Shown one piece after another: positions 37,606-38,198 of a DNA stretch of 43,454 nucleotides. Numbering within the stretch: the stretch's first letter is position 1; every line of letters starts with the position of its first letter. The notes below the pieces were generated by a model. It was not told the DNA's origin. It was given only the letters and a program-made list of their open reading frames with translations, and did not search any database. This DNA is from Pelagibacteraceae bacterium. Lineage in GTDB: Bacteria; Pseudomonadota; Alphaproteobacteria; Pelagibacterales; Pelagibacteraceae. Made by a program: the position numbers and the translations under genes. The stretch covers positions 1-43,454 of the forward strand of contig VTPD01000008.1 in the NCBI GenBank assembly GCA_008638015.1, given 5' to 3'.

Positions 37606-37663
37606 TCAATCTCAGATACTATTGAGGTTTGGCAACGTTTATTTCGTCACCTAATAGCTTTGT

Positions 37664-37721
37664 TTGACATTGGTTGCATTTTTCTATCTAAGACGCAGTG
37701 TATTTGTATTTTCAAATACAT
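37664..37721 (+). promoter_or_regulatory. cspA promoter region and 5'UTR hairpin
   Basis: TTGACA (37664-37669), then TATCTA (37685-37690) or ATCTAA one base later as a weak -10 with 15-16 bp spacing. The leader holds a perfect 8-bp hairpin TGTATTTG-TATTTT-CAAATACA (37699-37720) followed by TAATAATAATAATAA. A structured leader is usual for cold-shock genes. The Shine-Dalgarno is weak (AAGAAAG). Confidence 0.5.
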
Positions 37722-37749
37722 AATAATAATAATAACAAGAAAGTAAAAA

Positions 37750-37956
37750 ATGAGTCTAAAAGGAAAAGTAAAATGGTTTAATGAAAAAAAAGGTTTTGGT
37801 TTCATTGAACGCGAAGACGGAAAAAAAGATGTTTTCGTACATATCTCAGCAGTCCAAGCGGCTGGCTTAGATTACCTAGATGAAGGAAGTTCTATTAATT
37901 TTGATGTCGAAGACGGTCCAAAGGGCCCATCTGCGGTAAATCTAAAGCAAGAATAA
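37750..37956 (+). CDS. cspA: CspA-family cold-shock protein
   Basis: 68 residues. RNP1-type KGFGFIERE and RNP2-type DVFVHISAV within an intact cold-shock domain ([15 protein letters not shown] ... [10 protein letters not shown]). RNA chaperone that melts secondary structure. Paralogue choice (cspA versus others) is not settled by sequence. The next gene starts 32 bases after the stop. Confidence 0.94.
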
Positions 37957-37976
37957 TCCCAATCAATTAATAAGTT

Positions 37977-38093
37977 AGGAGGCCCGTTTTGGGCATACAC
38001 TACAACTACAAAGCAAAACGTGGTGAACGTGCTATGCAAAAAGAGCAAAAACGAAAAGATCGTTTAGCAAATAAAAAATCAAAACGGGCCCCT
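37977..38093 (+). promoter_or_regulatory. Possible translation-controlling RNA switch of the downstream small gene
   Basis: Stem strand A is 37977-37991 (AGGAGGCCCGTTTTG: Shine-Dalgarno, spacer and start TTG); strand B is 38080-38093 (CAAAACGGGCCCCT), inside the coding region. Eleven consecutive Watson-Crick pairs (37981-37991 with 38080-38090) and three more after a bulged A80 would bury the ribosome site. A competing local hairpin GCCC-GTTTT-GGGC (37982-37994) also covers the start. Both are rare GC-rich words in this AT-rich genome. Structure is inferred, not shown. Confidence 0.5.
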
Positions 38094-38198
38094 CTTATCA
38101 GCGAAACAACCTCTACCACCCCCAGACCCAAAGTACGAGAAATGCACGACATTAATAAGGTTGTGACTTTGGATGATTTAACCAATCCAGAAAATTAA
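37989..38198 (+). CDS. Small basic protein with TTG start, downstream of cspA
   Basis: 69 residues from TTG 37989. A perfect AGGAGG (37977-37982) with a 6-base spacer supports this rare start; the only in-frame ATG options are 15 residues later. N-terminal half is strongly basic (YKAKRGERAMQKEQKRKDRLANKKSKRA), C-terminal half is acidic and polar (VTLDDLTNPEN). No membrane or signal segment, and I recognise no family. Codons CGG-GCC-CCT at 38086-38094 are unlike the AT-rich usage around them, consistent with constraint on the RNA. Possibly an RNA-binding partner co-expressed with the cold-shock protein (inference). Confidence 0.75.
   Translation: MGIHYNYKAKRGERAMQKEQKRKDRLANKKSKRAPLISETTSTTPRPKVREMHDINKVVTLDDLTNPEN

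Follow-up and report, generated by a model that had tools for sequence, protein, structure and literature searches.

A candidate internal complementary sequence pairs with the start region of a small gene behind csp in SAR11 subclade III

Introduction

The closest described counterparts of the element reported here come from Escherichia coli. In the rpoH thermosensor, the start region pairs with coding sequence at least ~100 nt downstream and melts in the physiological temperature range. The SAR11 stem has the same start-to-coding topology, but it is predicted not to melt. The gnd gene is subject to growth-rate control. Its internal complementary sequence was reportedly described by Chang, Green and Wolf in 1995 (J Bacteriol 177:6560): long-range pairing of a coding segment with the gene's own ribosome binding site inhibits initiation, as would also apply to the SAR11 gene. 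The two elements differ in that the SAR11 one lies in another gene and another phylum branch, has its partner much closer (~90 nt), belongs to the second gene of a csp operon and shows compensatory changes between paralogues that preserve it.

PMC6728339 cites both the gnd internal complementary sequence and the long-range pseudoknot of the E. coli infC-rpmI-rplT operon (Chiaruttini 1996). The latter is also a long-range RNA pairing that acts on the translation of a gene within an operon; it is, however, a pseudoknot tied to ribosomal-protein control, whereas the SAR11 partner lies downstream in the same gene. The cspA thermoregulator (RF01766) resembles the present case in its position at a csp gene, over which a weak match was found, but the SAR11 element is proposed to control the gene after csp.

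In the open-access literature, no description of the csp-linked SAR11 element was found. The element itself seems to be undescribed, while its kind is already known from gnd. A survey of structured RNAs in Pelagibacter (PMC2704228) covered the intergenic regions of HTCC1062 and does not mention csp. Because it screened intergenic regions of one strain from outside subclade III, a subclade III element with an arm in coding sequence would have been missed.

Results and discussion

The csp-small gene locus

The window, a stretch of 43,454 nt, comes from a SAR11 genome of 1.09 Mb. On its forward strand, csp (37750-37956) encodes a 68-aa cold-shock domain protein (Pfam CSD PF00313, E 1.2e-26). Directly downstream, 32 nt after csp, lies a gene for a 69-aa protein (37989-38198) with a TTG start (37989-37991), preceded by the Shine-Dalgarno sequence (SD) AGGAGG (37977-37982) and the spacer CCCGTT (37983-37988). 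An Rfam search returned only a sub-threshold match to the cspA thermoregulator at 37607-38001 (36.2 bits, E 1e-7). With a curated gathering score of 78 bits, membership in this family was rejected. The match spans csp together with its 140-nt leader, and the 3' arm of the long stem described below falls outside it.

Predicted pairing of the start region

The original prediction was that the start region forms 11 consecutive Watson-Crick pairs, and three more past a bulge, with the gene's own coding sequence. Both the sequence and the fold bear this out exactly. On the forward strand, the 5' arm (37977-37991) comprises the SD, the spacer and the TTG start, and the 3' arm (38080-38098), the internal complementary sequence, spans codons 31-37. 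The core is formed by GGCCCGTTTTG (37981-37991), fully complementary to CAAAACGGGCC (38080-38090) in 11 pairs, followed by AGG (37977-37979) with CCT (38091-38093) past the bulged A37980. Five additional pairs, overlooked before, join an outer extension, ATAAG (37970-37974), to CTTAT (38094-38098) in both the minimum free energy (MFE) structure and the duplex fold. In total, the predicted stem has 19 Watson-Crick pairs, starts 14 nt downstream of the csp stop and buries the SD, the spacer and the start codon.

Folding of 37957-38198 gave -56.3 kcal/mol (z -4.4), which none of 200 shuffled sequences equalled. That the match exceeds chance was upheld by two further comparisons. When the gene was recoded synonymously, with codons drawn from genome usage, 0/300 versions reached the native pairing (z -5.1). 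The background sampled 200 other gene starts across 21 stretches of the same genome, the window among them, with start codons set mechanically by the longest ORF and therefore probably wrong in some cases; against it, the start-to-coding duplex ranked at the top, with -27.4 kcal/mol versus -20.0 kcal/mol for the best other start and a longest Watson-Crick run of 11 versus at most 9. Opening the region from SD to start was predicted to cost 25.4 kcal/mol at 25 °C, the highest value among 198 starts (mean of the other 197: 6.2; maximum: 23.8). The pairing had also been said to force the rare codons CGG-GCC-CCT. In the sampled genome stretches, which have a GC content of 31.6%, CGG is indeed rare (1.5% of Arg) and GCC uncommon (9.9% of Ala), but CCT is ordinary (37% of Pro).

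Gene copies and their linkage to csp

We use subclade III for the genera g1, g6, g8 and g10, a name inferred from the membership of HIMB114 (g10) and Fonsibacter (g6). Nearly every g1 genome carries two copies of the 69-aa gene, g6 and g8 have a single copy each, and g10 has one main copy, with a second copy in two genomes. Since this second g10 copy clusters with g1 copy 1 (support 97/93), copies 1 and 2 represent an old duplication. Both stand behind a csp, and csp precedes every subclade III copy whose contig extends far enough. Three entries were not flagged for csp: two are located at a contig end (L019, L120), and in the third (L006) csp has an internal deletion. In the latter genome (G005), the csp before copy 1 lacks the segment between two A-rich runs that is found in L008, either a true deletion or an assembly collapse.

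The pattern used detected no csp immediately upstream in any of 71 sequences from other SAR11 genera, and the inspected representatives had different neighbours. The stem was consistent only in csp-linked copies, and absent or inconsistent where the gene does not follow csp. The adjacency to csp is more meaningful than could be known from the window alone.

Conservation and compensatory changes

All csp-linked homologues keep the pairing, as revealed by the alignment, and compensatory changes accompany it. It was found in 29/29 distinct aligned subclade III sequences, in the form of three stem sequences, with five pairs changed on both sides between groups (3' columns 131, 130, 127, 125 and 121 of alignment A2) and G-U forms at columns 127, 124 and 121. 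In copy-2-type genes (g1, g6, g8, g10), GAGGCTC has its partner GAGCCTC at the same place, codons 33-35. In g1 copy 1, GGCCCGTTTTG pairs with CAAAACGGGCC or a near variant, and in the g10 copy-1 relatives, GGAGC-A-TCTTTTGG pairs with CCAAAAGAGCTCC. Copy-1 genes other than that of the window have a different outer extension, TAGTT with AACTA. The start codon lies inside the pairing in copy 1, and the conserved core arm covers SD and spacer in every group.

The codon for Ala34 follows its partner: it is GCC in 27/27 sequences with a partner G and GCT in 2/2 with a partner A. By contrast, each of the residues Ala15, Ala20, Ala27 and Ala31 is encoded by three or four codons. When arms were swapped between sequences, the energy was -18.3 kcal/mol, compared with -21.7 kcal/mol for own arms, and 0/2000 permutations were as good, a result inflated by the relatedness of the sequences. 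Standard pairs occupied 91% of the core cells in register and 19-52% when one arm was slid by 1-4 bases. Duplex energies ranged from -18.2 to -27.4 kcal/mol in the 31 distinct subclade III entries and from -5.1 to -17.0 kcal/mol in the 71 sequences of other SAR11 genera, without overlap. Taken singly, L010 and L011 were no better than their recoded versions (z -0.6 and -1.1).

RNAalifold recovered no stem from the MAFFT alignment of the homologues, because the spacer of copy 1 is offset by one base; pairs were instead counted with an explicit register for each group. Independent compensatory events are few, mainly the one old duplication and some later changes. The three stem sequences, combined with the codon contrast at Ala34, make it very likely that the pairing is under selection. 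The gene agrees with the gnd type in a coding segment that is complementary to its own SD and start beyond chance, and very likely in selection for that pairing.

The 69-aa protein family

The protein belongs to a family without a name, present in 168/197 of the sampled Pelagibacteraceae genomes and in a few further Alphaproteobacteria. Shorter relatives were seen in another alphaproteobacterial family (L152 and L153, E 6e-12). The family pattern is MGIHY.YK..RGERAM...KRA...EMHDI.K.ITLDDLTNP. The N-terminal half is basic and helical and the tail is acidic; AlphaFold predicted a helix at residues 7-33 and nothing else. Searches against Pfam, NCBIfam and PDB gave no useful match.

Proposed mechanism

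SAR11 are among the most abundant marine bacteria, have few transcription factors and are thought to rely on post-transcriptional control. A cis-acting RNA structure masking the start, as originally predicted, is supported by the conserved pairing and the compensatory changes in csp-linked homologues. In subclade III, the pairing is probably a real translation control, with an effect on expression that we infer. We consider it probable that the long-range helix between the SD region and the internal complementary sequence (codons 31-35) represses initiation on the finished mRNA, where, by analogy with E. coli gnd, it would block 30S binding. A point against such repression is that ribosomes already load while transcription is under way, which allows many bacterial starts to tolerate structure.

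In folds of the growing transcript, the predicted opening cost was ~7-12 kcal/mol to about +98 and 24-27 kcal/mol from +104. It went from 5-9 to 21-25 kcal/mol in a g10 paralogue (L119) and rose from ~14 to 21-24 kcal/mol in L015, while the copy-2-type gene L010 had a weak jump, from 12.4 to 15.0 kcal/mol. These folds suggest that the start would be accessible until ~100 nt of the gene are transcribed, and would then be sealed. Output would be tied to ribosomes that load early on the nascent RNA; each ribosome passing codons 31-35 would hold the 3' arm apart, and on idle messages the helix would close. A single transcript could in this way yield large amounts of Csp but few copies of the small protein, and the likely benefit is that the level of the small protein is set apart from that of Csp on the same transcript.

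The locus would represent a specific point of translational control next to a cold-shock gene, as well as an example of RNA pairing visibly dictating codon choice. A more far-reaching proposal, which we regard as tentative and somewhat doubtful, is that csp and the small gene form a timing device, in which only early ribosomes or nascent-bound Csp forestall the sealing of the downstream start. If true, translation would be tied to active transcription or to the amount of Csp, in an organism that has few transcription factors, and this arrangement would have been preserved in two old paralogous modules whose stems were rewritten.

Alternative explanations

Csp itself could operate the switch: encoded upstream, it would bind the nascent RNA and prevent or melt the helix, a feed-forward within the operon that would lead to synthesis of the small protein at high Csp levels. 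That a consistent stem is restricted to copies linked to csp, and is seen in both paralogous csp modules, speaks for this, as does the proposal that CspE and CspL of Pelagibacter control translation via mRNA structure (PMC2864753). However, a single ancestral event may underlie the linkage to csp, and another the stem, and an opening cost of 12-25 kcal/mol is large for Csp at equilibrium, which leaves it to act before helix closure. We consider a Csp-responsive switch possible but unlikely overall; the most interesting variant of the proposed mechanism would be a Csp that delays helix closure. Less probable still is autoregulation, with the small basic helical protein binding and stabilising the helix of its own mRNA. 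Its highly basic N-terminal helix resembles that of many RNA-binding proteins, but there is no family match, and other SAR11 have kept the gene without the helix. The position of the stem so close behind the csp stop codon would also suit a barrier whose main role is to shield the 3' end of the csp message or to determine how that message is processed, with SD masking as a side effect. A local hairpin would suffice for that, though, and a perfect SD is retained within the stem, whose conserved core arm covers SD and spacer throughout; this makes the barrier quite improbable. Coupling to csp by its terminating ribosome was likewise considered unlikely, because of the distance from the csp stop codon at which the stem starts.

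An RNA thermometer, melting on warming to turn translation on, was part of the original prediction. The adjoining cold-shock gene and the similar pairing of the E. coli rpoH start region would fit, but for almost every subclade III sequence the pairing probability is predicted to be ~1.00 at 4, 15, 25 and 37 °C, and in the window the MFE structure retains the stem up to 60 °C. Since the helix is not predicted to open in the growth temperature range, membership in the rpoH-type thermometers was rejected, and a thermometer is very unlikely. The other part of that prediction, a switch with a second hairpin as partner, did not hold either. The hairpin GCCC-GTTTT-GGGC (37982-37994, forward strand) exists in the window (-5.8 kcal/mol) and excludes the stem, and it may form on nascent RNA, but it is confined to one paralogue group, copy 1 of genus g1. 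A two-state switch was rejected because the hairpin is missing from the other homologue groups. Finally, the pairing is sporadic outside subclade III, as would be expected of chance complementarity or a quirk of a single genome; such an origin is extremely unlikely in view of the pairing in every distinct aligned subclade III sequence, the compensatory changes, the partner-dependent Ala34 codon and the swap test.

Pairing outside subclade III

In the rest of SAR11, outside subclade III and the g5-type clade, the swap test gave no signal (1857/2000), and the g5-type clade gave a weak sign (51/2000). At some g5-type loci (L083, L086, L093, L099, L104, L117 and others), the SD region (GGAGCGCTTG or a variant) has a match in the gene's own coding sequence around codons 33-36 (CAAGCGC or a variant), and some changes are mirrored on both sides. 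These matches are perhaps a weaker related feature. A strong predicted pairing was also observed in L124, a lone copy without csp upstream in the one g9 genome seen, where 0/60 recodings were as good.
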